Positions 10,426-63,078 of a stretch of 64,000 nt of DNA are shown one piece after another (position 1 is the first letter of the stretch; every line of letters begins with the position of its first letter). The stretch is from NCBI RefSeq assembly GCF_023015765.1, contig NZ_JALKAL010000018.1:1-64000 (forward strand), written 5' to 3'. Both the position numbers and the translations under genes were made by a program. The notes below the pieces were generated by a model. That model had not been told where the DNA came from. It saw nothing but the letters and a program-made list of their open reading frames with translations, and made no database searches. This DNA is from Ornithinimicrobium sp. F0845 (GTDB taxonomy: Bacteria > Actinomycetota > Actinomycetes > Actinomycetales > Dermatophilaceae).

Positions 10426-10460
10426 CTTGCCCGACCCCTGCCCGTTAGCCCGGGGCGCTC

Positions 10461-10757
10461 CCCCGCCCACCGACCCCTCGTTGGCAGCTGGCATGGGCAC
10501 GTGCCTGGTTTCTACCCACGAAGTCGCCAGACCACGGGTAGATCCCGTGCACGTGCCCCCGCCCACCAACCCCTCGTGGGCGGCTGGCATGGGCACGTGC
10601 CTGGTTTCTACCCACGAAGTCGCCAGACCACGGGTAGATCCCGTGCACGTGCCCCGGCTGCCCCCGCCCACCGACCCCTCGTTGGCAGCTGGCATGGGCA
10701 CGTGCCCGGTTTCTACCCACGAAGCCACCAGACCACGGGTAGAACCCGTGCACGTGC
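10461..10757. repeat. Three tandem copies of a ~96-bp unit containing a 62-bp palindromic element
   Basis: Units at 10461-10557, 10557-10653 and 10662-10757 share the flank CCCCGCCCACC.ACCCCTCGT and a 62-bp imperfect palindrome. The palindrome begins GGCACGTGC and ends GCACGTGCC, with internal arms TCTACCCACG and CGGGTAGA. A fourth copy lies at 11813-11874 in the opposite orientation on the other side of the 10857 gene. An open frame through the repeats on the minus strand encodes only repeated peptide and is not a gene. The rest of 10352-10856 holds no other feature. Confidence 0.85.
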
Positions 10758-10856
10758 CCCGGTCAATCCGAAGGTGGACGGGCACGCCCGACCGCGAAGT
10801 GGGCCGCACTGTGGATAACCTCCGTCGCCGATTCCTGGATTCAGCACACTGCAAGC

Positions 10857-47042: not shown

Positions 47043-47115
47043 GGGCCTGTAGCTCAGGTGGTAGAGCACCGCGTTTACACCGCGGTTGTCGTCGGTTCGA
47101 GCCCGGCCGGGCCCA
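47043..47115 (+). tRNA. tRNA-Val (UAC anticodon)
   Basis: A 73-nt cloverleaf folds completely: acceptor GGGCCTG/CGGGCCC, D arm GCTC/GAGC, anticodon stem CCGCG/CGCGG with loop TTTACAC (anticodon TAC), variable TTGTC, and T arm GTCGG/CCGGC with loop TTCGAGC. Discriminator A; CCA is not encoded. Its 3' half is antisense to the end of ctlX. Confidence 0.97.
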
Positions 47116-48055
47116 CTCCTTCCGGCAGCGGGAGACGGGCGTCCAGGTGGATGCCCGCCACCATGCAACGCACCGAGCCTCCGGCCAGCTCGATGGTCGG
47201 CACGTCCAGGGGCAGGAGCGTGCAGGTGCGCTCGATGATCGCCCGCTGCTCGGCGGTCAGGGTGGCCGCCGCCCGGGTCGACAGCGCCAGGAACCGCTCC
47301 CCGTCATGACCCTCGAGCTCGATCGCGTTGCCCGCGAAGTCGTGGATCTGCCGGGGGCTCAGGTTGATCACCGGCCGGGTGCCGCGGCGACCGCTCAACC
47401 GCTGGGCCACCACCTGGCGCCGGTGCGGGTCGGTGATCATGTCCAGTCCGATCAGCACGAAGTCCGCGGCGATGCACATCAGCACGTTGGTGTGGTAGAT
47501 CGGCGTGCCGTCGGCGTCCGCGGCGTCGAAGGCCATCGGCTCATAACCGAAGGCGGTGCAGAACCGCTCCAGGACGACCGGGTCGGCGCGGCGCGACCGT
47601 GCGGCGTAGGCGATCCGCGACACGTGGTCCAGGACCATCGCCCCGGTCCCCTCCAGGAAGATGTCGTCATACTCCAGCCCGGAGTAGTCGATGACGTCCT
47701 GGACGCGGTACTGCTCCTTAAGCATCTCGATGATGTCCGGTCGGCGCTCCGTGCGGCGACTCGCGGCGTACATCGGGTAGAGCGCGACCCGGCCACCCGC
47801 GTGGGTGGAGAACCAGTTGTTCGGGAAGACGCTGTCTGGCCGGGTCGCGTCCTCGTCGTCGAAGAGGTGGACCGTGATGCCGGCGGCCTCGAGCACCTCG
47901 GCAGCCCGCGTGACCTCCTGGTAGGCGGCCTCGGCCAGCGCGACCGGGTCGCCGTGAGCCGCCACCTGGAAAGCGTTGTCGGCCGCCGTCTCGGGGTTCG
48001 GCGTGAAGCGGTGGGGACGAATCAGAACGACCGCGTGGGGAGCCTGGACGGGCAT
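47075..48055 (-). CDS. ctlX: Citrulline/arginine hydrolase-like protein CtlX
   Basis: A 326-aa amidinotransferase/arginine-deiminase-fold protein. Conserved blocks are VFPNNWFSTH, YDDIFLEGTGAMVLD, YHTNVLMCIAADFVLIG and, with the probable catalytic Cys, GGSVRCMVAGIHL. The ATG at 48055 has AGAGG 5 nt upstream, preferred to a GTG two codons earlier. The stop codon lies inside the oppositely transcribed tRNA-Val gene, so the last ~13 residues (PAGLEPTTTAV) are antisense tRNA sequence. Confidence 0.88.
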   Translation of the reverse strand: MPVQAPHAVVLIRPHRFTPNPETAADNAFQVAAHGDPVALAEAAYQEVTRAAEVLEAAGITVHLFDDEDATRPDSVFPNNWFSTHAGGRVALYPMYAASRRTERRPDIIEMLKEQYRVQDVIDYSGLEYDDIFLEGTGAMVLDHVSRIAYAARSRRADPVVLERFCTAFGYEPMAFDAADADGTPIYHTNVLMCIAADFVLIGLDMITDPHRRQVVAQRLSGRRGTRPVINLSPRQIHDFAGNAIELEGHDGERFLALSTRAAATLTAEQRAIIERTCTLLPLDVPTIELAGGSVRCMVAGIHLDARLPLPEGVGPAGLEPTTTAV

Positions 48056-49131: not shown

Positions 49132-49378
49132 AGTGCGCACAGTCCACTAGAGAACGGCGGGAGAGGCAAGACGCGACACGCGAGCGGTCCTCTGACGGGG
49201 ATGCCCAGGGGGCAGTATGACGAGGTGCCGGCGGGGGTGCGCAGCGGCGAGTATGACGGGGGTCTGGTGGTCCGGCACACGACCGGTCCGCGGAGCTGGG
49301 GTGGCCCATGCGGCCACCGTACCTGGCGTGCAAGGATGGACCGGCAGGAGAGTGCTGCTCCCAGTGGAAGGAACGTCA
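49132..49378. promoter_or_regulatory. DUF3052-aceE divergent intergenic region
   Basis: 247 nt between divergent starts. It contains two AGTATGACG(A/G)GG copies about 38 nt apart. No clear -10 for aceE is seen except CACCGTACCT near 49316. A short in-frame stretch from ATG 49201 ([21 protein letters not shown]) has no good ribosome site and is not called. Confidence 0.4.
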
Positions 49379-52129
49379 GTGACAACCAACACGCCGGGCC
49401 CGATCGTCAACGGTCTGCCCAGTCAGATCCCCGACACCGACCCCGAGGAGACCCAGGAGTGGCTGGACTCCCTCGACGGGGCGATCGAGGCGGGCGGCCG
49501 TCGTCGTGCCCGTTACCTGATGCTGAAGATGTTGGAGCGCGCCCGCGAGTCCCAGGTCGGCATCCCGTCCCTGACCACGACGGACTACGTCAACACGATC
49601 CCGCCGGAGCGCGAGCCCTGGTTCCCCGGTGATGAGGAGGTCGAGCGTCGCTACCGCGCCTGGATCCGCTGGAACGCCGCGGTCATGGTGCACCGCGCCC
49701 AGCACCCGGACATCTCGGTCGGCGGACACATCTCCACCTACGCCTCCGCCGCCACCCTCTACGAGGTGGGCTTCAACCACTTCTGGCGCGGCCGCGACCA
49801 CGAGGGCGGCGGCGACCAGATCTTCTTCCAGGGACACGCCTCCCCCGGCATGTATGCCCGGGCCTTCCTCGAGGGACGGCTCGAGGAGGAGGACCTGATG
49901 GGCTTCCGGCAGGAGAAGTCCCACATCGTCGACGGCGAGGTCCGCGCGGTCCCCTCCTACCCCCACCCGCGGAACATGCCGGACTTCTGGCAGTTCCCGA
50001 CGGTGTCGATGGGGCTGGGCCCGATGAACGCCATCTACCAGGCGCAGTTCAACAAGTACCTCCACAACCGGGGCCTGAAGGACACCTCGCAGCAGCATGT
50101 GTGGGCCTTCCTCGGCGACGGTGAGATGGACGAGCCGGAGTCGCGCGGCCTGCTGCACGTGGCCGCGAACGACGAGCTGGACAACCTCACCTTCGTCATC
50201 AACTGCAACCTGCAGCGCCTCGACGGCCCGGTCCGGGGCAACGGCAAGATCATCCAGGAGCTGGAGTCCTTCTTCCGCGGCGCCGGCTGGAACGTCATCA
50301 AGGTGGTCTGGGGCCGTGGGTGGGACCAGCTGCTGGCCGCCGACCCCTCCGGTGCCCTGGTCAACCTGATGAACTCCACGCCGGACGGTGACTACCAGAC
50401 CTACCGCGCCAAGGACGGCGCCTTCATCCGGGACCACTTCTTCGGCCGCGACCCACGCACCAAGGAGCTGGTCAAGGACTGGTCCGACGAGCAGGTGTGG
50501 TGGGCGCTCAAGCGCGGCGGCCACGACTACCGCAAGGTCTACGCCGCCTACAAGGAGGCGCTGGAGCACACCGGCCAGCCGACCGTCATCCTGGCCAAGA
50601 CCATCAAGGGCTACAGCCTCGGGTCCAACTTCGCCGGCCGCAACGCCACGCACCAGATGAAGAAGATGACGGTGGAGGACCTGAAGGCCTTCCGCGACGG
50701 TCTGAAGATCCCGATCACCGACGAGCAGATCGAGAAGGACCCCTACGCCCCGCCGTTCTACCGCCCCGCGGACGACGACCCGACCCTGCAGTACATGCGG
50801 GAGCGTCGCACCAAGCTAGGTGGTGGCCTGCCCAAGCGGCAGCCGGAGAAGGCCAAGCCCCTGCAGCTGCCCGGTGACGACACCTACAAGGTCGGCAAGA
50901 AGGGGTCGGGCAAGCAGGCGATCGCCACGACCATGGCCTTCGTGCGCATCTTCAAGGACCTGATGCGCGACAAGGAGTTCGGCAAGCACATCGTGCCGAT
51001 CATCCCGGACGAGGCGCGCACCTTCGGGATGGACTCCTTCTTCCCGACGGCCAAGATCTACAACGTCCACGGGCAGAACTACACCTCCGTGGACGCCGAG
51101 CTGATGCTGGCCTACAAGGAGTCGGAGTCCGGGCAGATCCTGCACGTCGGGATCAACGAGGCCGGCTCGGTCGCCGCCCTCACCGCCGCGGGCACGTCAT
51201 ACGACACGCACGCGCTGCCGATGGTGCCGTTCTATGTCTTCTACTCGATGTTCGGCTTCCAGCGCACCGGTGACGGCATCTACGCCGCTACCGACCAGCT
51301 GGCCCGCGGCTTCATGATCGCCGCGACCGCCGGGCGGACCACCCTGACCGGTGAGGGGCTGCAGCACGCCGACGGCCACAGCCTCCTGCTGGCCTCCACC
51401 AACCCGGCCGTGGTGTCCTACGACCCGGCCTACGCCTACGAGATCGCCCACATAGTGCAGGACGGCATCCGGCGGATGTATGGCGAGGACCCCGAGGACA
51501 TCCTCTACTACCTCACGGTCTACAACGAGCCGGCGGTGCAGCCGGCCGAGCCCGAGGACGTGGACGCCGAGGGCATCCTCAAGGGCATGTACCGGGTCGC
51601 GGACGGCGGTGAGGGCGACAAGAACGTGCGCCTGCTCGCCTCCGGGGTCGGGGTGCCGTGGGCCCTGGAGGCCCGTGAGCTGCTCCAGGAGGACTGGGGT
51701 GTCACGGCGGAGGTATGGTCGGTGACGTCGTGGACCGAGCTGCGCCGCGAGGCGATGGCCTGCGACGAGGACCGGTTCCTGCACCCGGACAAGGAGCGGC
51801 GGGTGCCCTATGTCACCCAGCGGCTGTCCGAGGGCACCGGCCCCGTCGTGGCGACCAGCGACTGGATGCGCGCCGTGCACGACCAGATCGCCCCGTGGGT
51901 CCCGGAGGACTTCTACGCCCTCGGCGCGGACGGCTTCGGCTTCGCCGACACCCGGGCGGCGGCCCGCCGGTTCTTCCACATCGACGGCCCGTCGATGGTG
52001 GTCAAGGCCCTGCAGATGCTCGCCGACCGCGGCGAGATCGACGAGAGCGTCCCGCAGCAGGCGATCGAGAAGTACCAGCTGCACGACGTCCGCGCCGGCA
52101 CCAGCGGCGTCACCGGCGGCGACTCCTAG
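49379..52129 (+). CDS. aceE: Pyruvate dehydrogenase E1 component (homodimeric)
   Basis: A 916-aa thiamine-diphosphate enzyme decarboxylating pyruvate and acetylating the E2 lipoyl domains. ThDP/metal block [49 protein letters not shown] and [22 protein letters not shown] are present. GTG 49379 has AAGGAAC upstream; the frame is open for 54 codons earlier without homology. The last 208 bp (51922-52129) are duplicated 9,954 bp downstream. In other actinobacteria a PucR-type regulator follows aceE directly. Confidence 0.96.
51922..52129 (+). repeat. aceE 3'-end direct repeat, left copy
   Basis: This 208-bp segment, ending with the aceE stop TAG, is repeated at 61876-62083. Three mismatches fall in the first 34 bp (51942, 51951, 51955); the following 174 bp are identical by reading. 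Sequences diverge immediately after TAG (GAGGCT here, AGCGCA at the right copy). Confidence 0.95.
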
Positions 52130-52278
52130 GAGGCTGGTGTTTTCGTCGCGTGGCGGCCCCGGGGGCCGGCGGTCGTTTCGGGAGGATTGATGGATGACGT
52201 GAGGACTGACACCGAGCCAGCGTGACCTGTTCCGATCGACGACCGGGTTCTGTGAGGTCGGGTGGACACGGGCTCGAT

Positions 52279-53033
52279 CTACGGGTTGTTACACGCCTCG
52301 TGCTTGTGGGTGGAGTAGTTGTCCAGGATCAGGTGGACCGCCAGCCCGTCGGGAACCTCCTCATCGACGGTCTCAAGGAACTTGAGGAACTCCTCTTGCC
52401 GGTGTCGGGGTAGGCACTGACCGATGACCTTGCCGGTGAGCATGTCCAGGGCGGCGAACCGGGTCGTGGTGCCGTTGCGCTTGTAGTCATGAGTCATCGT
52501 CCTGGCCCGACCCTTCTTCATCGCCTTCTCCGGTGGGTCCAGGTACAGGCCGACAACGTCGATGAGCTTCTCGGTGGTTACGAGTCGTTGCTGACCTTGA
52601 ACGTGTCCACCCGGTGCGGCTGCAGACCCAGCTCGGACCAGATCCGCTGCACGCTGGCCGGGCTGACCCCGACCCGCTTCGCCATCGTGCGACACGACCA
52701 GTGCGTCTGGCCCGGCGGTGTGGTCTTCGTCGTGAGCTCGACGATCTCGGCGACCTGCTCCTCGGTGATCGTGGGCTTACGACCCCGCCCGGACCTGACC
52801 TTGCCCCAGTTGGTCAGCCCCTCATCCGCAAACGCCTTGCGCCACGCCCGCACGGTCACCGGGCTCACCCCGTGGTCGTCGGCGATCCTCTTGTTCCCGA
52901 CCCCCTCGGCGGCAGCGAGCAGCACCCGGGCACGCACCACCTCCCGGGGCGCAGACGCCGAGGACCGAGCGACTCGCTCCAGCACCTCTCGTTGGGCCGG
53001 TGAGACAGCGAGCGGGGCAGCGGGTGAAGTCAT
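52279..53033 (-). pseudogene. IS630-family transposase, degraded
   Basis: The N-terminal part (from ATG 53033) has the IS630 helix-turn-helix ([78 protein letters not shown]) and then hits a stop after a frameshift. The C-terminal part continues in another frame ([58 protein letters not shown]). Between PPEKA and MKKGRA the usual segment with the first catalytic Asp (CVDEK) is missing, and the DDE C-terminus is cut off. It cannot be active. Confidence 0.9.
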
Positions 53034-53287
53034 ACCCTGATTCTACGCCAACAGGGATTAGTTATTTGCGAGACGCACCACTTGAGGCCGTGGTTCTCGA
53101 CCAGGGGGCGAGGCTTGGCAGGATATCGTTTGGCTCCTGCTCGACCAACGGCGCCGACGGCGTGACCGCGCTCGCGCAGGCGCGGCGCTCCGGCTTCACC
53201 GGCCAGGTGGTGGCCTCGACGGCGAAGACCGCGATCGCCCGGATCTTGGAGCGCTCCTCCGGCTCACCGCGACCGGATACCCTGCAG

Positions 53288-53407
53288 TCAGGCGGGGAGC
53301 CACTCGTCATCGTCGGGGAGCCACTCGCCGTCGTCGGAGTCATCGACGGGTCGGGAGGCCGGTGGCACTTCCTCGGCTTCGGGGCGGGGACAGGGGACTG
53401 GCGGCAT
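53288..53407 (-). CDS. Small acidic ORF (39 aa) with repeated DDxEWLP
   Basis: ATG 53407, preceded by GGAAGAG, opens a 39-aa frame ending DDSDDGEWLPDDDEWLPA. A 21-bp tandem duplication (53294-53335) encodes the two DEWLP copies. It may be a short gene downstream of the LAL regulator or the tail of a lost one. The rest of 53034-53472 shows no convincing gene, only a plus-strand frame without recognisable homology. Confidence 0.3.
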   Translation of the reverse strand: MPPVPCPRPEAEEVPPASRPVDDSDDGEWLPDDDEWLPA

Positions 53408-53472
53408 GGCTCTTCCGGTTCGACGAGTGGGGCAACGATCAGAAGAAGTCTTCCTTGCCGGAGCCGTCCTCG

Positions 53473-56430
53473 CTATGGGGAGAAACCTCCAGAATTGTCA
53501 GAGCCAAGGAGGATTCTGGCGAACGCAGCACGGGTGGGGGCGTCCAGCTTCTGCTTAGCTGCTGCCACGTGCTTCTCGACCGTCTTGACCGAGAGGTGCA
53601 GGTCTCGGCCGATCTGAGCGTTGGTGTGGCCCACGGCGACCAGTTCCGCGACTTCGCGTTCGCGGGGGGAGAGCGCGTCGCCGTATCCCTGCCGACCGCC
53701 GCGATGCCGGCCAGGCACCGCCACCCCGAGCCGCCGCGCCAGCCGGTGGGCGCGGGCCTCGTCCCACGAGGCCCCCAGTCGGCGGTAGCCGTCCAGTGCG
53801 GCACGCAGGGCGTCACCTGCCGCGACCGGGTCCGCTGAGGTCAGCCGACCGGCGATCGCCTCCCGGCACTGGGCCGCCTCGTAGGTGCAGTCGAGAGCGG
53901 CGTACGTCTTCGCCGCCCTTTCGAGCAGGGCTGCGGCCGCGACGGGGTCGGCGGCGAGGAGGCCGTCGGCGTGCATCAGCACCGAGTCGGCCAGGGGTGC
54001 ATCCAGGTCCGCCACGGCGCGTCGGACGCCGGCGACCCAGTCGCCGGCCTCCCCTGCTCGGTCGGCGGTTGCCAGGAGAGCCTCGACGAATACCGGCAAC
54101 ACGCGCAGGGCCGGCGCCCAGACCCCCTTCCGCTCGGCGGTCGCGAGGACGCGCACTCCGAGCTCCACCGCCGAGTCGAACTCATCGCGACTGAGCCGGA
54201 GGCGGACGAGGGCCGTAGCGGGCACCGACAGCAGGTCGTTGGCGCCCAGAGATTCCGTCCGATCCACGGCGGCCTCGAGCAGCGACTGCGCGGACTCGAT
54301 CTCACCGCGCGCCAGGCTGAGGCAGGCATGGACCGACTCGACATCGACGCCAGCACGGGAGAAGTCGCTCAGGTCGTCGACCAGGCCGGCGACCCGCTCC
54401 GCGAGCCCGGTCCACCGGCCCCTGCAATAGTCCAGCAGCGCCAAGGATCGGCGCAGCCGCAACTCCAGTCGCGGACTCCCACACTCCCGTGCGCCGTCGA
54501 GGCCGACGGTGAGGTACGTCGCGGCGACGCCGTGATGGCCGGCGTAGCAGGCCTGGATCCCGATGGTGTCGTAAGCGTTGACCTCCCGGCGCAGCCGCGG
54601 GGTCCCGCCGGTGTCCACGGCCACCCCCTCGGCGAGGGCGCGCCAGGCCGGGTCACCCATGACCACCAGCACCATCGCGACCTTGCCGCGCAAGAAAACG
54701 CGGGTCACCGGATCGTCCACCCGGGGCAACTGTCCGAGGGCACCGTGGAGCCAATGCCGATGCTCCGCCGGTTCGACACCGTCGGTGTGGGGGATGCCCA
54801 GCCCGATCATCGCCCAGGCGCGTAAGGCCGGGTCGGTGAGGTCGTCCAGGGCCTCGAGGTAGAGCCTGCGCAGCGACTCGGAGTCACCACCGGTCTGCTC
54901 GAGCTGCAGGGCGAGTCGGAGCCGTAGCTCCCCCCGCCACTCCGCCTGGATCCGGGACGCGGCCACCGACGGGTCCGACATGACGTCGATCGCCTGGGCG
55001 ATCAGCTGGGGAAGGTCGGAGATCTCTGGGATGACATCGTTGGCAACCCGAGCCAGTCGCAGCGCGACCCGGCTGCGGGCCTCCCCGTCCAGGGGAGCCT
55101 CCCGGAGGACGTCCGCGAGGAGGCGGCAGGCTTGCTCGTCGTCGTACAGCTCGACAGCCCGAACCGCCGCGCGCTCGGCGGCCACCGCCCACGCGGCTAG
55201 CCGGCCAGCACGGTGCAGATGGTGGGCTTCCACCCAGGGTTGGTCCTCGACCGAGCCGGCCGGCCCGGAGAGTGCGGTGGCGGCGCGGGCGTGCAGTCGC
55301 CGACGGCGTACGCCGGAGATCGACTCGTAGACCGCCTGCGCGGTGAGCAGATGGCGGAAACCGACCCGGTCACCGTCCTCGCTGAGGAGCCCAGCGGCGA
55401 GTGCCTCCTCAAGACCGTCCTCGACCGCGTCGGAGGCGGCCGAGCAGATCGCGGCGATGACCTCGACGGGCTGGGCGACCTGGAGGACCGCGGCGGCCTC
55501 GAGTGCCTCCCGAGCGGGGCGACTCAGGCGGCTCGCGCGTTCGAGCACGGCATCCCGGATGCGGTACGGCACGTCGAGCCGGTCCAGCGTGCGGCGTACC
55601 CAGCGCGATCCATGGCGGATCAGCGTGCCCCGTGCCTGCAGCAGCGCGAGCAACTCCTCGATGGCGAACGGGATCCCGGAGGCGCGTTCCCACAGGTACG
55701 TCGCGAACTCCTCTGACAGGTCGTCCACACCCAGGATGGCGGAGGCCAGGGGCCGCGTGTCGGCCGGACCGAGCGCGCCGAGCCGGAGGCGCAATGGCGG
55801 TACCGGGCCGGTGACCGCGAGCGCGCCGCGTACCCACGGCTCCACCTCGTCGTCGCGGACACTGACCACGAGCGCCAGTCCGGGCGGAGGAGCAGTGATC
55901 AGCTGGCCTACCAGTTCGACGGTCTGCGCGTCGGCGCAGTGCAGGTCCTCGATGACCAGCACGACCGGACCGAGGGCGTGCAGCAGGTCGGCGACCGCGC
56001 GGAAGACCCGGTGGCGCTCCGCCAGAGGGTCATCGAGGGGCTCGAGAGCGGGCGGAAGGATCGCGGCGAGCTCGGGCAGCAATGGTCGCAGCCCGCCGGT
56101 GACCGCTGGAAGCACGGCCTCGGCGAGGCGCTTCTGCTGCCCGCGGAGCGTTTCGACCAGTGGGCCGAGAGGAAACGGGTCGCCGAGCCGACGGCATGAC
56201 CCCCGGAGCACGGGAAGCCCGCCAAGCCGGGGGTCGGCCTCGAGCTCGGCTAGCAGCCGGGTCTTGCCGGCCCCGGCCTCGCCCTCGATCACCACCACGG
56301 CCGGCGGGCTCGTGACCGCGGTGACCAGGGCGTCCAACTCACGGTCGCGTCCGACCATGTGCGTGCTCACCCGCGCGACCTGGGGTGGGGGCGCGGTCTC
56401 CGGCCCCGGTCGAGTCACCGGGCTCTGCAT
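53473..56430 (-). CDS. LAL-type LuxR transcriptional regulator
   Basis: A 985-aa large ATP-binding LuxR regulator. Walker A GEAGAGKT is at 50-57, Walker B VVLVIEDLHCAD near 155-166, then a long helical TPR-like middle region, and a C-terminal LuxR helix-turn-helix (LSPREREVAELVAVGHTNAQIGRDLHLSVKTVEKHVAAAKQKL, about 922-965). Such proteins are usually pathway activators responding to a small ligand or protein. It lies directly downstream of the subtilase gene (180 nt, same strand) inside the island. Tyr/Val codon choice (GTAC) differs from the flanking chromosome. Confidence 0.93.
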   Translation of the reverse strand: MQSPVTRPGPETAPPPQVARVSTHMVGRDRELDALVTAVTSPPAVVVIEGEAGAGKTRLLAELEADPRLGGLPVLRGSCRRLGDPFPLGPLVETLRGQQKRLAEAVLPAVTGGLRPLLPELAAILPPALEPLDDPLAERHRVFRAVADLLHALGPVVLVIEDLHCADAQTVELVGQLITAPPPGLALVVSVRDDEVEPWVRGALAVTGPVPPLRLRLGALGPADTRPLASAILGVDDLSEEFATYLWERASGIPFAIEELLALLQARGTLIRHGSRWVRRTLDRLDVPYRIRDAVLERASRLSRPAREALEAAAVLQVAQPVEVIAAICSAASDAVEDGLEEALAAGLLSEDGDRVGFRHLLTAQAVYESISGVRRRRLHARAATALSGPAGSVEDQPWVEAHHLHRAGRLAAWAVAAERAAVRAVELYDDEQACRLLADVLREAPLDGEARSRVALRLARVANDVIPEISDLPQLIAQAIDVMSDPSVAASRIQAEWRGELRLRLALQLEQTGGDSESLRRLYLEALDDLTDPALRAWAMIGLGIPHTDGVEPAEHRHWLHGALGQLPRVDDPVTRVFLRGKVAMVLVVMGDPAWRALAEGVAVDTGGTPRLRREVNAYDTIGIQACYAGHHGVAATYLTVGLDGARECGSPRLELRLRRSLALLDYCRGRWTGLAERVAGLVDDLSDFSRAGVDVESVHACLSLARGEIESAQSLLEAAVDRTESLGANDLLSVPATALVRLRLSRDEFDSAVELGVRVLATAERKGVWAPALRVLPVFVEALLATADRAGEAGDWVAGVRRAVADLDAPLADSVLMHADGLLAADPVAAAALLERAAKTYAALDCTYEAAQCREAIAGRLTSADPVAAGDALRAALDGYRRLGASWDEARAHRLARRLGVAVPGRHRGGRQGYGDALSPREREVAELVAVGHTNAQIGRDLHLSVKTVEKHVAAAKQKLDAPTRAAFARILLGSDNSGGFSP

Positions 56431-56610
56431 CGTCCTCTTCGCTACGAGATGGATCGGGGTGCCGATATCCTCTCACTCCGCGCCGCTGCCGGGAAAAGGA
56501 AGCCGTGGGTGAGGCTCGCCATGTCGCGGGTTCGTCACGATCCGAGGTACGCCGACAGGGCGGCCGGGTCACGCGACCCGACCGCCCCGGGGAGTATCCG
56601 GCTGCACTGC

Positions 56611-59600
56611 TCAGGAACAGCCGACCTCGTCGAGATCGAGGGCGACCTCGCTGGTCTTACCGGCCGACACCCTGACCGACTCGGACTCGATCGAGTAGCC
56701 ATCCTTCGCCGCGAACACGGTGAGCTCGCCGTTGCGCTTGCTGTTGCGCTTCTTGTCGAGCCAGTGTGCGAACGACCCGTCGGCGTCGGTACGGAAGGTC
56801 CGTTCCATCACCGGGGAGGAGAACTGCACGGTGGCACCGTCGAGCAGTGTCGTCAACCCGTCGCACGCGACGCCGGAGACCACGCCGGCGACCTTGGACC
56901 ACGACCTGGGCGGGGTCACGATCATCGAGACCTCCACTTCTGGCTGCGGGTAGGGCGTGCTCTCCAGGATCGCCAGACCCGCGGTGTAGGTCCCCGGCTG
57001 GTCGACCGTCGAGTCGGTGGTGACCAGGATCTCGGTGGTCTCGCCCACCGCGAGGGTGGCAGTGGACTTGTCCGTCGAGACCCAGCCGACGTCGGCCGAG
57101 CCGTCGCTGCACTGGTCGTAGCCAGGCAGCATCTCTGCAGCGGCGTTGGGGTTGTAGCCCTGCGGCGAGCCGCCCACCTTGTAGAGTCCGCAGGCACCCC
57201 CGCCGCGGTAGAGCACCGTGTTGGCCCCGGGCAGTCCGGTCCAGGAGTCGGCGACCGGGTCGTAGCCGAAGGCCTGGTTGGTGATCTGGCCGCGCTGGAC
57301 GCCACCGACGATGACCAGCAGGTCGTTGGCGACGCTGTTGGCGCTGCCCCAGACGTCGTACGGCGCATCGGCCTTTCGCACCCAGGTGTCGGCGCCCGGG
57401 TCGTAGGCGTAGGTCCGGTTCGTGACGTCGGAGCCGATGCCGCCGCTGCAGTAGATCGTCCAGTCGATCGTGCCGCAGGCGCTGTACGCGAGCGCCATCG
57501 GATAGTCGGACATCCGCTGCCACTCGTCGGAAGCGACGTCGTAGGCCATCGCGCTGGCCGACATCGGGTTGCACTGCGCGGTGGTGCAGCCCCCGATCGC
57601 GAACAGCCGCCCGTTGACCACCGCCGCCGCGGCACCCGCGCGGCCCTCGGGGTTCGTGGCCACCGGCGCCCAGCTGTTGGCGCCGGGGTCGTAGACCCAG
57701 GTGTCGCCCTGCGTGACGTCGTTCTCGTCCCAACCACCGGTGGCCACGATGCGGCCGTCGATGACCCCGGCGGTCATACCGCTGCGCGGCGCCGGCAGGG
57801 AGGCGACCTCGGACCAGGCCAGGGTGGCCGGGTCGTAGGCCCACGCCGAGCTCAGCGCACCGCCGCTGCCGTAGCCGGCGATCGAGTAGATCTTGCCATC
57901 CAGCCGGACCACGGCGTTGTCCATCACCGCCGCCGGAGAGTCCGCAATGTCGATCCATGGGTCGACATGCGGTGCCGACTCCTGCTCGACCGAGTCACCA
58001 CCGCCGGATGCGCCAGGCGCGCCCACCTCGACCGGGGCGTCCGACCAGTGCACCGGGGCACCCTCGGCCGCCGTGATCGAGTTCCGACTCGTCGTGCGCC
58101 CGTCGGCGCCCTGGAGCACGAAGCCGCGGTCGCGTTCGCCGACTCGGATATCCAACGGCGCGGTGCCGGTGTTGGTCAGGGTGATGCTCCGGGTCTCGGT
58201 GCCGCTGCCGAGCTCCTGGGTGAGTTCCACCTCTGCCGGGGTGACCGAGAGCTGCCCGGCGTTCAGAGTGGCGTCGGCGACGGCGAAGCCGTCCAGGTCG
58301 ACCGGGCCGGTCCAAGTCTCGTACTTCGGCGCGGTGACAGTCAGCTGCTGCTGACCGTCGGCCGGGCTGTAGAGCCAGTACGAACCGCTCGCCGGGGTGG
58401 CCGTGGACTCGGTGCTGACGTCACCGACGCTGATCTGGGCACCGATGAGGCCCTCACCGGTGTTGGCGTCGGTCACCGTGCCGACCAGCATGGCGCCACC
58501 CTCATCGGCAGCACAGGCGAACGCCTGGTCGGAGGGGTTGGCCCAGTCGAGCGCGTTCCAGAAGATCTTCTCCGACTCGGGCAGCCAGGAGCCGGCGCCG
58601 CGCGCGTGCATCGACAGCAGCACGTGCCGGTTGTTGGCCCGCTCCTGGACGCCGATGCCCGGACCCGAGACGCCGCGGGTGGCGTCGCCGGCACCGGCGA
58701 GGACCTGGCGGCCCTCACCCTCGTAGCCGGTGAACCAGGCGGTCTGGGCGCCGCCGAGATGACCGATCCGGTCGCCTGCCTGGAAGTCGGCCAGGACCGG
58801 GTGCTCCTGGGTCACCTCGTAGAACGTGCCGGAACCGCTCGCGTTGCGACGCTCTAGGGTCATCGGATTGCCGGTCACCTTCGACAGCGCGGCGACTCCG
58901 TTCCCGAGGCCGAACGCGAAGTCGGTGAACACGATCCCGGTGCCGCTGGCATCGGTGCGGGCCAGCAGGTCCTGGAACGCCTCCGTGGTGGGCAGCGTGT
59001 AGTTCGAGGTCCACAGCACCAGGTCATAGCCCTGGATCTGGGCCAATTGCGAAGTGGTGAAGAAGGTGGCATCGATCCCGTACCCGCCCAAGTACTCCTC
59101 GTACTCGAAGCCGGGGTCGTTGGAGACGAGCGCGATCTTCGGCTGCTGCTGGTGGTATCCGGGCGCGACGCACGGGCTTTGCTGGACCGGGACTGCCAGG
59201 TCGACGGTAGTGTCACCGCTGACCTCGACGCTCCGGGTCAGCGTCTGGTAGCCCGGGTAGGCCGGCGACACCGAAAGGTCGTACGACGTCCCGGTCGGCA
59301 CGTCGAGACTGAAGCTGCCGTCCCGAGGATCCGTGTGCAGGGTCAGTGCGGGTGCGCCTGCGACGCTCACCTGGGCGTACAACGGCCAGCCCTGTCCGGA
59401 GCCATCGGTGACCGTACCGGAGACGGTGGCCGTGGGCAGCGCGGTGAGGGAGAAGTCCTGGGTGGTGGTCGTGCCCTCGCTCACGGTGACCGACGCGGAC
59501 TCCTCGCCGTAGCCGAAGCTGGTCGCGGTGACCTCGTAGTCGCCGACGGGCAGCTTGGTGATGAAGTGTCCCTCGTCGTCGACCGTGACCTCGCGATCGA

Positions 59601-61200
59601 CCGCGGACTCGCCCTCGCCGCCGGTCACCTCGACGGTGGCGGCGGCCAGTGGGGTGCCCTCCTCGGCGTCGGTGACGTCACCGGCCAGGGTGCCGATCGG
59701 GCCACGGTCACCGGCCTCCACCAGCGCCAGGGCGTCCAGTCGGCCTTCGCCGTACACGTTGTTGTTCTCGGCGGTACCGCCGCACTGCAGGTCCTCGGTG
59801 TCGATGGCGGTCTCGTCGAGGATCTCGGTGGTGCCTGGCAGGTCGCCGATCAGGTCGGGCTGTGCGGACCAGAGCAGCGCCAGCGCACCGGAGGTGTGCG
59901 GCGCAGCCATCGAGGTACCGCTGAGAACCTTGTAGCCGCCGCCGGGGGCAGCGGACCGAACGTTGACGCCAGGCGCGGAGATGTGGGGCTTGATCCCGCC
60001 GTCCTGGCCCGACCCGCGGGAGGAGAACGAGCCGATCGTGTTGTTCATGTCGTAGGCCCCGACGGAGTAGTTGATCGTGCGAGAGCCCGGGGAGCCGGCC
60101 GTCTGACATTCCGGTCCGTTGTTGCCGTTGGACCAGATCGCGAAGATCCCGGAGGCCGCCCAGGCCTCGGAGATGTCCTCCATGAAGGGGTCGTTGGAGG
60201 GGATCCTTGTGCCCCAGGAGTTGTTGATGATGTGCGGGCGCTTGCTGGGATCGGCCGCCGAACCGTCCAGCTTAGTCGGTGCCAGCATCCATTGTCCTGC
60301 CTCGATCAGGTCGACGTCGGAGCAGGTGGAGCAGCCGTTGGCGGTGATCCAGGTGGCCCCGGGAGCGACGCCGATCTGGTTGTCACCGCCGTCGGAGCCG
60401 ACCATGGTGCCCATCGTGTGGGTGCCGTGACCGTCGTGGTCACACGGGCCAGCGGAGCAGCTGCCGTCGGTGTCCAGCCAGTTGTAGTCGTGGGTGAAGG
60501 TGCCGTCGCCGTTGGTGCCGCGGTACTGCTCCACCAGCGCCGGGTGGTCGAACTGCACGCCGCTGTCGATGTTGGCGATCACGATGCCCTCACCGGAGTC
60601 GCCCTCGGCCCAGACCTGGTCGGCCTTGATGTTCGCCACGCCCCACTCGACGGCATCCGCCGTCGCCTGGGCGTCGTGGTTTGAGACCGGTTCGACGGAC
60701 TGGTAGGTGCGCGACGGCCAGAGCCCGTCGACAGCGGGCACGACGGCGAGCTCCTCGGCCAGCGCGCGGCTGCCGTTCTCGACGTACACCGCGTCTGTGG
60801 CCCAGAACGTCTTGTACGACGCGTTGGACCGCTTCAGCGCGGTAATCACCTCGGCCTGGTGGTCGGCAGACTCCTCCTTCAGCGCCTCGACCACCTCCGC
60901 TCCGCGCTGATCCCAGTCGCCGTTCGCGGCGGCCGCGCTCAGGTCGGTGTCGTCGTCCCGTTCGAAGCGGACCCAGAAGTCCACCTTCGCTGACTTCTCG
61001 AACTTCCTCGCCAACCCCGGCTGGACCTTGTCCTCCGGTCGGGGTGACTGCTGGCGCGCGGCGTCGTACTCGACCGGACCAGCCGAGGAGTCAGGATCGC
61101 TGGCCTGGACCGCCGGTGCAGGTCCCGCAAGGGTGGCGGCTGCGAACAGAGCGGCACCGGCGGTGACACTGGCGGCCCGAGCCATCCAGTTGCGGCTCAT
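56611..61200 (-). CDS. Secreted S8 subtilase with kelch repeats
   Basis: A 1529-aa exported protein. A Sec signal peptide (1-33, ending PAVQA) and a pro-region precede the subtilisin domain with Asp212 (ANIDSGVQFDHP), His258 (DGHGTH), the oxyanion Asn360 region (SNGNNGP) and Ser430 (SGTSMAAPH). Two carboxypeptidase-regulatory-like beta domains (about 505-680), a ThuA-like/glutamine-amidotransferase-like segment (about 690-890), another beta domain, then about five kelch repeats (about 1083-1336, e.g. GKIYSIAGYG, GRIVATGGWD, GRLFAIGGCT) and a C-terminal beta domain. No LPXTG anchor, so probably released. Largest gene of the island. Confidence 0.93.
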   Translation of the reverse strand: MSRNWMARAASVTAGAALFAAATLAGPAPAVQASDPDSSAGPVEYDAARQQSPRPEDKVQPGLARKFEKSAKVDFWVRFERDDDTDLSAAAANGDWDQRGAEVVEALKEESADHQAEVITALKRSNASYKTFWATDAVYVENGSRALAEELAVVPAVDGLWPSRTYQSVEPVSNHDAQATADAVEWGVANIKADQVWAEGDSGEGIVIANIDSGVQFDHPALVEQYRGTNGDGTFTHDYNWLDTDGSCSAGPCDHDGHGTHTMGTMVGSDGGDNQIGVAPGATWITANGCSTCSDVDLIEAGQWMLAPTKLDGSAADPSKRPHIINNSWGTRIPSNDPFMEDISEAWAASGIFAIWSNGNNGPECQTAGSPGSRTINYSVGAYDMNNTIGSFSSRGSGQDGGIKPHISAPGVNVRSAAPGGGYKVLSGTSMAAPHTSGALALLWSAQPDLIGDLPGTTEILDETAIDTEDLQCGGTAENNNVYGEGRLDALALVEAGDRGPIGTLAGDVTDAEEGTPLAAATVEVTGGEGESAVDREVTVDDEGHFITKLPVGDYEVTATSFGYGEESASVTVSEGTTTTQDFSLTALPTATVSGTVTDGSGQGWPLYAQVSVAGAPALTLHTDPRDGSFSLDVPTGTSYDLSVSPAYPGYQTLTRSVEVSGDTTVDLAVPVQQSPCVAPGYHQQQPKIALVSNDPGFEYEEYLGGYGIDATFFTTSQLAQIQGYDLVLWTSNYTLPTTEAFQDLLARTDASGTGIVFTDFAFGLGNGVAALSKVTGNPMTLERRNASGSGTFYEVTQEHPVLADFQAGDRIGHLGGAQTAWFTGYEGEGRQVLAGAGDATRGVSGPGIGVQERANNRHVLLSMHARGAGSWLPESEKIFWNALDWANPSDQAFACAADEGGAMLVGTVTDANTGEGLIGAQISVGDVSTESTATPASGSYWLYSPADGQQQLTVTAPKYETWTGPVDLDGFAVADATLNAGQLSVTPAEVELTQELGSGTETRSITLTNTGTAPLDIRVGERDRGFVLQGADGRTTSRNSITAAEGAPVHWSDAPVEVGAPGASGGGDSVEQESAPHVDPWIDIADSPAAVMDNAVVRLDGKIYSIAGYGSGGALSSAWAYDPATLAWSEVASLPAPRSGMTAGVIDGRIVATGGWDENDVTQGDTWVYDPGANSWAPVATNPEGRAGAAAAVVNGRLFAIGGCTTAQCNPMSASAMAYDVASDEWQRMSDYPMALAYSACGTIDWTIYCSGGIGSDVTNRTYAYDPGADTWVRKADAPYDVWGSANSVANDLLVIVGGVQRGQITNQAFGYDPVADSWTGLPGANTVLYRGGGACGLYKVGGSPQGYNPNAAAEMLPGYDQCSDGSADVGWVSTDKSTATLAVGETTEILVTTDSTVDQPGTYTAGLAILESTPYPQPEVEVSMIVTPPRSWSKVAGVVSGVACDGLTTLLDGATVQFSSPVMERTFRTDADGSFAHWLDKKRNSKRNGELTVFAAKDGYSIESESVRVSAGKTSEVALDLDEVGCS

Positions 61201-61509
61201 CGCGGGTCACCGGACTCTCCGCGCGGCGGGCACCAACAGGAGACAGGCAAACAGAACGGGGGCATGGGACCTCCACCGGTAAGGGGGACGCGGACACCCT
61301 GGTGGTGCCTGCACAGTTCTTCCAAATTTTCGAGCTCCACCCGCTCCCGTCGCCATGGGGAGGTTCCCCCATTTTTGCTCAGAGGTCTGTTGCGGGCCGT
61401 CACCCAGCCGTTGATCGCCATCCCGCACGGGAGGGCGAACCGGCCGGCGACGTCCAGTGCGACGGTGTCCAGCTCGTACTGGCGATGTCTACTCCACGAC
61501 GCCCGCGGC
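61201..61509. other. Island segment upstream of the subtilase gene
   Basis: About 300 nt containing the subtilase ribosome site (GGAGAG upstream of ATG 61200) and GC-poor spots such as CCCCCATTTTTGC near 61367. I see no supported gene here; open frames on both strands lack recognisable homology. Confidence 0.5.
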
Positions 61510-61875
61510 GCTCCCTCAGCAGAGGGGTATCGGAACGTGTGGATCCACTCCAGCGCCAAGGCCAGCCGCGATGCCCAGGCACGGCCCGGGCGGATCGACG
61601 CCGGCGTCGCCGCGACCGAACCCCTCGAGGGCAAGCCCGCAGGGCTACGGAGCCGGTGCAAGACCCGCGTCGCGGTCGAGCAAGCCGCGGTCAAAGCTCT
61701 CGCCGGTGCCGGGGCAGACCGGTGGGTCACCGCCTCGGTGAGCGAGACGACGCAGCCAGAGACGGCTGCTTCCCGCTCATCACCAACGACCACCTACTCA
61801 GCGACGCCGACAGGGCGCCAACCGATACCAGCCGAACCTCGAACGCCTCCACCCCCTGCTCAAGAGCGTCCAGAA
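61510..61875 (+). pseudogene. IS1634-family transposase relic fused to aceE fragment
   Basis: One frame reads YRNVWIHSSAKASRDAQA, then LRSRCKTRVAVEQAAVKAL and ADRWVTASVSET, matching IS1634-type transposases. A second frame continues DGCFPLITNDHLLSDAD, and a third YQPNLERLHPLLKSVQN, the region with the last catalytic Glu. The segments are separated by a deletion and frameshifts, so it is inactive. The last residues SVQN run directly into GADGFG of the aceE copy at 61876. Confidence 0.75.
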
Positions 61876-62083
61876 CGGCGCGGACGGCTTCGGCTGCGCC
61901 GACATCCGTGCGGCGGCCCGCCGGTTCTTCCACATCGACGGCCCGTCGATGGTGGTCAAGGCCCTGCAGATGCTCGCCGACCGCGGCGAGATCGACGAGA
62001 GCGTCCCGCAGCAGGCGATCGAGAAGTACCAGCTGCACGACGTCCGCGCCGGCACCAGCGGCGTCACCGGCGGCGACTCCTAG
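61876..62083 (+). repeat. aceE 3'-end direct repeat, right copy
   Basis: This 208-bp copy encodes [18 protein letters not shown]... to the stop TAG; Phe-to-Cys and Thr-to-Ile differences lie at its left end. Its terminal CTAG is shared with the stop codon of the convergent GDPD gene (TAG on the minus strand at 62082-62080). This is probably the original chromosomal junction. Confidence 0.95.
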
Positions 62084-63078
62084 AGCGCACCCGCCCGAGC
62101 CTGCACGCCCAGGTCGGTGTGGTCGGTGAAGAAGCCGTCCACACCGGCCGCCAGGTGTGCCCGGATCTCGGTGACGACGTCCCCGGTGCCGTCCGGGCCG
62201 CGCAGGTCGGTCGGGAGGAACTCGTTCTCCTGGCGGAAGGTCCACGGATGCACCTGCAGGCCGGCTGAGTGGGCGTCCCCGACCAGCGAGGTGGGCTCCC
62301 CCAGCCCGCCGTCCGGGCGCCGACCGACCACCAGGTCCTTGTCCGGTCCGACACCGTCGACCGCCTGCGCCAGGTCGGCCAGCCCCTCCGGCGTGAGCAG
62401 GTCGACGTAGGTCCGCGGGTCGCCGGCCGAGACCAGGTCGAAGGGCGCCCCGGTCCGCTCCGCCAGGAAGATCAGCGGCACCCGGGCACCCAGCTCCTGC
62501 CGCAGCGCGACGAGGTTGCCCAGCTCGAAGGACTGCAGGAAGACCGGCGCCCCGGGCCGGTTGAGCCCGGCATCCTCCAGCGCCACCATGAGCGGCTCCT
62601 CCAGCGGCAGCGCGATCGCGCGGAAGTAGGTCGGGAACTTGGTCTCCACATAGACCCCGAGGTCCCGTCCGAGCTCCACCGACAACCGGGCGCGCAGGTC
62701 CAGGATCTCGGCCAGCGTGGGGACGGTGAACTGCCCGTCGTATGCCGTGTTGCCGGGTCGCAGGGCAGGCAGCCGTTCGCGGCAGCGCAGGGTGCGCAGC
62801 TCCTCCAGGGTCAGGTCCTCGGTGAACCACCCGGTGACCCGGTGGTCGCCGAAGACCTTGGTGGTGCGCCGGTCGGCGAACTCGGGGCGGTCGGCGATGT
62901 CGGTGGTGCCCGAGATCTCGTTCTCGTGGCGCGCCACGAGGTGCCCGTCGGCCGTCGCGACCAGGTCCGGCTCCAGGTAGTCCGCGCCCGACCGGGCCGC
63001 CAGCTCGTAGGCCGCCAGCGTGTGCTCGGGCCGCGCACCGCTGGCCCCGCGGTGCGCGATGAGGATCGGCCGGCTCAC
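62080..63078 (-). CDS. Glycerophosphodiester phosphodiesterase
   Basis: A 332-aa GDPD barrel hydrolysing glycerophosphodiesters to glycerol 3-phosphate and an alcohol. HRGASGARPEHT (His9, Arg10, Glu18), LEPDLVATADGHLVARHE (Glu, Asp, His), VETKFP and QVHPWTFRQENE (His) are the usual ligands. No signal peptide, so cytoplasmic. The GTG start overlaps the DinB stop as GTGA, and its stop coincides with the aceE copy as CTAG. Confidence 0.93.
   Translation of the reverse strand: MSRPILIAHRGASGARPEHTLAAYELAARSGADYLEPDLVATADGHLVARHENEISGTTDIADRPEFADRRTTKVFGDHRVTGWFTEDLTLEELRTLRCRERLPALRPGNTAYDGQFTVPTLAEILDLRARLSVELGRDLGVYVETKFPTYFRAIALPLEEPLMVALEDAGLNRPGAPVFLQSFELGNLVALRQELGARVPLIFLAERTGAPFDLVSAGDPRTYVDLLTPEGLADLAQAVDGVGPDKDLVVGRRPDGGLGEPTSLVGDAHSAGLQVHPWTFRQENEFLPTDLRGPDGTGDVVTEIRAHLAAGVDGFFTDHTDLGVQARAGAL

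Follow-up and report, generated by a model that had tools for sequence, protein, structure and literature searches.

Two copies of the aceE 3' end around accessory DNA in Ornithinimicrobium sp. F0845: a probable hybrid of an occupied and an empty allele

We have analyzed a stretch of 64,000 nucleotides from Ornithinimicrobium sp. F0845 (contig NZ_JALKAL010000018.1, positions 1 to 64,000; hereafter the window) in which the end of aceE, a pyruvate dehydrogenase E1 gene, is found twice, as a 208-bp direct repeat around accessory DNA (hereafter the island). Our reading, to which we assign a probability of about 0.6, is that the locus is a hybrid of two alleles brought together by one illegitimate junction and one homologous crossover. 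The left part (aceE, CTAG, a relic of an insertion sequence (IS) of the IS1182 family, and accreted DNA) would come from an occupied allele, and the right part (aceE tail, CTAG and a glycerophosphodiester phosphodiesterase gene, GDPD) from an empty aceE-GDPD allele. The features that define the two edges are the following (ORF, open reading frame).

49217 to 52129, plus strand: aceE (pyruvate dehydrogenase E1), complete, with PDH E1 and transketolase domains (ORF and domain scan; the start is that of the longest ORF and the true one may lie further in)
51922 to 52129, plus strand: left copy of the repeat, the true 3' end of the complete aceE ORF
52126 to 52129, no strand: CTAG, target of the IS1182-family insertion and end of aceE (comparison with related copies)
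52130 to 52293, plus strand: IS1182-family relic, with the left terminal inverted repeat from 52130 and the start of the transposase gene at 52195-52293 (comparison with relatives)
61487 to 61876, plus strand: decayed interior of an IS1634-family transposase gene, with frame changes and an internal deletion, cut off sharply where the right aceE copy begins (alignment to locus L194)
61876 to 62083, plus strand: right copy of the repeat, fused to the IS1634 relic and ending in CTAG
62080 to 63078, minus strand: GDPD (ORF and domain scan)

The two copies of the repeat start 9,954 bp apart, with 9,746 bp between them, and agree at 205 of 208 positions. The mismatches fall at repeat positions 21, 30 and 34, and the last 174 bp are exact, which is no chance match. 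Beyond the repeat the flanks are at chance identity (25/100 upstream and 29/100 downstream). A preliminary description of the window had claimed this spacing, three mismatches within the first 34 bp and an identical final 174 bp, and our recomparison confirmed it; its statement that the DNA in between is accessory is also supported by the IS relics, regulator and subtilase found there. In the own genome (4.2 Mb in 59 contigs) only these two copies match the repeat strongly, the third match being of 27 bp (E 4e-4).

The stop codon of aceE (TAG, 52127-52129) lies inside the CTAG at 52126-52129, and the GDPD stop codon lies inside the CTAG that ends the right copy. In G005, the closest relative searched (94% over the repeat), there is no insertion and the GDPD stop overlaps the aceE tail by the same CTA. 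The aceE stop is TAA there, and CTAG is thus particular to the lineage of the window among the loci compared. The right copy keeps the overlap between aceE and GDPD and therefore represents the original chromosomal junction. In 23 of the 30 other genomes of the genus a GDPD gene lies at most 300 bp from the aceE tail. Of the remaining seven, G008 and G009 have only weak GDPD matches, G001 has the gene on the contig of the aceE tail but far off, and G014, G023, G024 and G030 have it on a different contig. Together with the overlap in G005, these counts support the view that the island was inserted relative to an empty aceE-GDPD site.

At the left edge the window reads CTAG and then GAGGCTGGTGTTTTCG directly after the aceE stop, and this resembles six of the IS1182-family copies aligned from CTAG. 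The 99 bp from 52195 are 78% identical to the start of a transposase gene on the Rhodococcus plasmid pRWAY02, in an element that begins CTAG|GTGGCTGGTGTTTTT and has the inverted repeat at its other end. Both halves of the pRWAY02 gene match the NCBIfam model for IS1182 below its cut-off, and L230, on another Rhodococcus plasmid, matches it above the cut-off. The end motif comes directly after CTAG in 12/12 left ends of related copies (six in G063 that are nearly identical to each other, a single one in G005 and in G179, and four from three Rhodococcus records). Nine right ends were found, followed by CTAG in seven and by CTACTAG in two. The motif is carried by 11 (L205, L207-L209, L218, L222, L224, L226, L228-L230) of 25 IS1182-type loci, and one stray match in L229 lies away from any element end. 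The other 14 loci, less similar, are without it; three of them (L211, L215, L219) have a different terminal repeat with CTAG on both sides, and no ends were recognised in the other 11. Within the window the motif is found at a single place, while CTAG appears 20 times in the 64 kb. The repeat thus stops at 52129 because an IS1182-family element inserted there.

What remains of this element is a relic. The actinobacterial IS1182 elements to which it can be compared (for example on the Rhodococcus plasmid pRWAY02 and on plasmids of strains DMU1 and M8-35) share with it the left terminal repeat, the left CTAG and the start of the transposase, but in the window no more than about the first 165 bp can be recognised and the right terminal repeat is missing. 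No transposase sequence was detected past 52293, the motif of the right terminal repeat is absent from the window, and no intact right end with CTAG was found. Some members of the IS1182 family target palindromes (PMC5678879); the word CTAG is absent from that article. CTAG is not named as the target of this subgroup in the titles and abstract openings found, and we do not claim the target as new. On a plasmid of Rhodococcus sp. DMU1 (L229, 2775-2786) two IS1182 copies abut with one CTAG between them, which suggests that one was inserted at the target of the other.

The right edge is of a different nature. Positions 61487-61881 align at 74-78% with the gene of a 513-aa transposase (L194, in G074, another genus of the same family), which NCBIfam assigns to IS1634 above the cut-off (E 2.6e-73). 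The family name of the relic in the window is taken from L194, and the relic was identified only through this genome of the same family. The alignment reaches the first bases of the aceE copy and therefore 61876 is where the interior of a transposase gene was joined to the interior of aceE. At most a few bases are shared at this junction, which is clearly non-homologous, and it is neither an IS end nor the boundary of an attachment site (att). A plasmid origin of this flank was rejected, as no meaningful plasmid match was found: 61201-62083 had none, the matches of 61501-61900, in 17 records, were all short (best E 7e-4), and a tblastn search of the IS1634 piece against plasmids gave nothing at 1e-5 and one meaningless match at E 2.

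In our reading both edges arose as follows. First, as the bases at the left edge show directly, an element of the IS1182 family inserted at the CTAG of the overlapping aceE and GDPD stops and so defined position 52130. Then more pieces of mobile elements and a transferred pair of subtilase and regulator genes would have accrued, and the right part of the IS1182 element would have been lost. From the two junctions defined above we infer that a fragment reaching from 208 bp before the aceE stop, across the IS1182 relic, the regulator and the subtilase, to the interior of the IS1634 relic had its ends joined, at what is now 61876. The circularised fragment would finally have entered a chromosome with the empty aceE-GDPD arrangement by one RecA-type crossover within the 208 bp of aceE. 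Such a single crossover would leave aceE complete, add a second aceE tail and keep the original CTAG-GDPD junction, with no integrase required. The locus has the features expected, i.e., the repeat corresponds to the shared homology, with the original junction at one copy and the complete gene at the other. Besides, the side of the repeat that bears the mismatches is the one that would be expected from the joined molecule.

A recircularised fragment that entered by a single crossover is the likeliest route. It is close to the second option of the preliminary description, in which a circular molecule with a piece of aceE recombined at the locus. There is an experimental parallel in Escherichia coli (Amarir-Bouhram et al., 2011; PMC3240628). 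After conjugation with linearised DNA, PCR on 56 of 60 candidates gave the product that marks a partly duplicated target gene, and the 14 recombinants sequenced there had duplications of 109-950 bp, which were ascribed to a single crossover with recircularised, partly deleted DNA. Like these Campbell-type integrations, our locus has a partial duplication of the end of the target (208 bp) and one non-homologous junction. Unlike them, it involves a natural segment of 9.7 kb with a donor that was not found, where the laboratory work used a non-replicative plasmid.

Several points weigh against the hybrid reading. Neither a donor with the occupied allele nor the circle was found. The IS1182 piece is short and frame-broken, and it owes its family name to scans of its relatives and not of the piece itself. 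Decay is seen in the IS relics but not in the aceE tail, which requires several steps at different times. The replacements in the right copy (F to C and T to I, both within its first 34 bp) alter bases conserved in 32/32 loci (29 of the 30 other genus members, the remaining one being without the locus, and three genomes of other genera), and at repeat positions 21 and 30 the left copy has the bases found in all of them. The changes are unlikely to be ordinary donor alleles because of this conservation, and they would need damage to an end, error-prone joining or later decay. Finally, recombination with a linear fragment of the empty allele would give the same product, indistinguishable by sequence alone.

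This last possibility, homology-facilitated illegitimate recombination, is the best placed of the alternatives, although we regard it as unlikely. A linear fragment with the last 208 bp of aceE and the GDPD side would have undergone homologous exchange with an occupied chromosome on the GDPD side and illegitimate joining to the IS1634 relic, and the right end of the old insertion would have been deleted. The process would leave the same two junctions, one homologous and one non-homologous (of which the latter, at 61876, is the clear one here), and it would explain why the right end of the IS1182 element is lost as well as the changes near the illegitimate joint. The confinement of the three mismatches to the 34 bp beside that junction (P = 0.004 for three random sites and one end, tested after the pattern was seen) fits this process and the entry of a circle alike. 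Against it, the E. coli study (PMC3240628) describes the process, as of 2011, in three naturally competent species and puts its frequency in E. coli about ten times below that of degradation, ligation and single crossover. The same study predicts for it an insertion with deletion of target DNA, and here we find a duplication.

An artefact of the assembly, either a mis-joined contig or an empty aceE-GDPD chromosome accompanied by a separate circle of 9,954 bp, is improbable. The genome is a draft of 59 contigs, and across 174 identical bases the same reads could presumably be threaded both ways. However, the island ORFs scanned include no recognisable gene for replication or transfer, and an artefact by itself leaves unexplained that the IS1182 left end sits on the aceE stop as the product of an insertion. 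Tandem duplication of the IS1182-occupied unit, by a template switch from the IS1634 relic back to aceE, after which the second insertion would have been lost precisely by way of its CTAG duplication, seems to us very improbable. Resident DNA would suffice for it, and CTAG at the IS ends would permit the precise loss, but two rare steps are required and neither the flanking relics nor the regulator has a second full-length copy in the genome.

Recurrent use of the site in relatives, expected of an integrase-dependent element, is not seen: a second copy of the aceE tail at E<=1e-20 is present in none of the 30 other genomes of the genus. Weaker second matches exist; in G006, for example, a stretch of 53 bp past GDPD matches at 78% (E 3.6e-4). 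Among the genomes of other genera, 5 of 155 have two matches to the tail (G034, G047, G048, G116 and G162, with four candidates scored per genome); the places of the second match are listed for G048 and G162 only, and in both they lie on different contigs.

Integrase-dependent genomic islands at the 3' ends of genes are flanked by direct repeats of that 3' end around accessory DNA. Our locus resembles them in the repeats and in the restored gene end, but differs in that no integrase was found and the edges of the repeat are transposon sequence. The preliminary description had suggested integration restoring the aceE end and had remarked that no integrase is visible. The latter is borne out by scans of the island ORFs with Pfam, NCBIfam and PHROGs, in which no integrase or recombinase appeared (the scans covered frames free of stops). 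The former is not supported, since the terminal repeat of an IS1182 element at its CTAG target forms the left edge and the right edge lies within the interior of an IS1634 relic. Site-specific insertion of an element at the end of aceE, for which the 208 bp would have served as att and whose integrase would since have been lost, is for the same reasons, and with no second tail at the above threshold in the other 30 genomes, the least probable of all explanations, and we reject it. A link to a tRNA gene was also discarded, the only tRNA of the window being at 47043-47116. No known structured RNA matched Rfam at the gathering score in 51000-63000.

The locus is thus probably an ordinary scar in the genome and not a new kind of mobile element. 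It suggests that long-repeat islands at the 3' ends of core genes may arise without an integrase, when an IS that targets CTAG enters overlapping stops and the occupied and empty alleles recombine afterwards. Targeting of CTAG would let such an IS enter between convergent genes with overlapping TAG stops and harm neither of them. Island finders based on repeats would probably label the locus an integrative element. The two tails should still allow rare RecA-dependent loss of a 9,954-bp circle. We consider it highly doubtful, though, that the 9,954-bp unit with its aceE tail is a recombinase-free mobile island, leaving as a circle and re-entering other strains by RecA at aceE with the tail as homing sequence.

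The rest of the island is made up of the following features.

52279 to 53033, minus strand: relic of an IS630-family transposase gene in two frames, with the C-terminal part missing (72 and 85 bits, below the model cut-off of 100)
53034 to 53472, no strand: unassigned spacer from the IS630 relic to the regulator (the ORF over this stretch matched no family)
53473 to 56430, minus strand: LAL/LuxR-type regulator of 985 aa, with AAA_16 ATPase and GerE domains (domain scan)
56611 to 61200, minus strand: subtilase of 1529 aa, with Peptidase_S8, CarboxypepD_reg and kelch domains (domain scan)
61201 to 61486, no strand: unassigned spacer from the subtilase to the IS1634 relic (the ORFs over this stretch matched no family)

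The IS1182 and IS630 relics meet at about 52293-52299, and PHROGs gave for the latter only weak matches to transposases and helix-turn-helix proteins. The spacer pieces 61374-61496 and 53054-53284 had plasmid matches at E 0.6 or worse only. In the own genome we found no further IS1182 copy (protein, E<=1e-30), no further IS1634 piece (E<=0.01) and, for the IS630 region, nothing at the DNA level beyond another 48 bp. With no other copies of its IS in the genome, the island fits the import of an already assembled segment.

For both the subtilase and the regulator the closest proteins found are those of Nocardioides albus (70% identity over residues 50-1528 for the former and 53% for the latter; 80 of 84 subtilase relatives were kept, and near records may be missing), where the pair is in the same order and orientation as in the island, subtilase and then regulator. 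Within the genus the best matches are at 57-58% for part of the subtilase and at 39% for the regulator. At E<=1e-60 the regulator is matched in 4 of 186 genomes of the family, the one of the window included, with four candidates scored per genome. From these comparisons the pair was probably acquired by transfer. We take the regulator to be of the LAL type, a name that fits its AAA_16 and GerE domains. In G002, G007 and G017 (L190-L192) a relative of the regulator adjoins a subtilase in the opposite order. The fetched flanks of 10 of 80 subtilase loci contained a regulator match (E<1e-30), within 1.5 kb in five of the 80, figures that have no control for chance proximity. It is possible that regulator and protease form a module. 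Kelch-subtilases and LAL-type regulators side by side are seen in actinobacteria in either order (window 53473-61200; L066 9863-21850; L190-L192), and in Nocardioides albus the pair is followed by the gene of an M36 fungalysin metallopeptidase.

The own genome (G000) contains nine stretches that match the subtilase at E<=1e-60, that of the island included, and one of them lies in an ORF of 3,320 aa; giant ORFs like this one are found in several relatives. Elsewhere in the window, at 10460-10772, there is a tandem array of about three copies of a unit of 96-105 bp.

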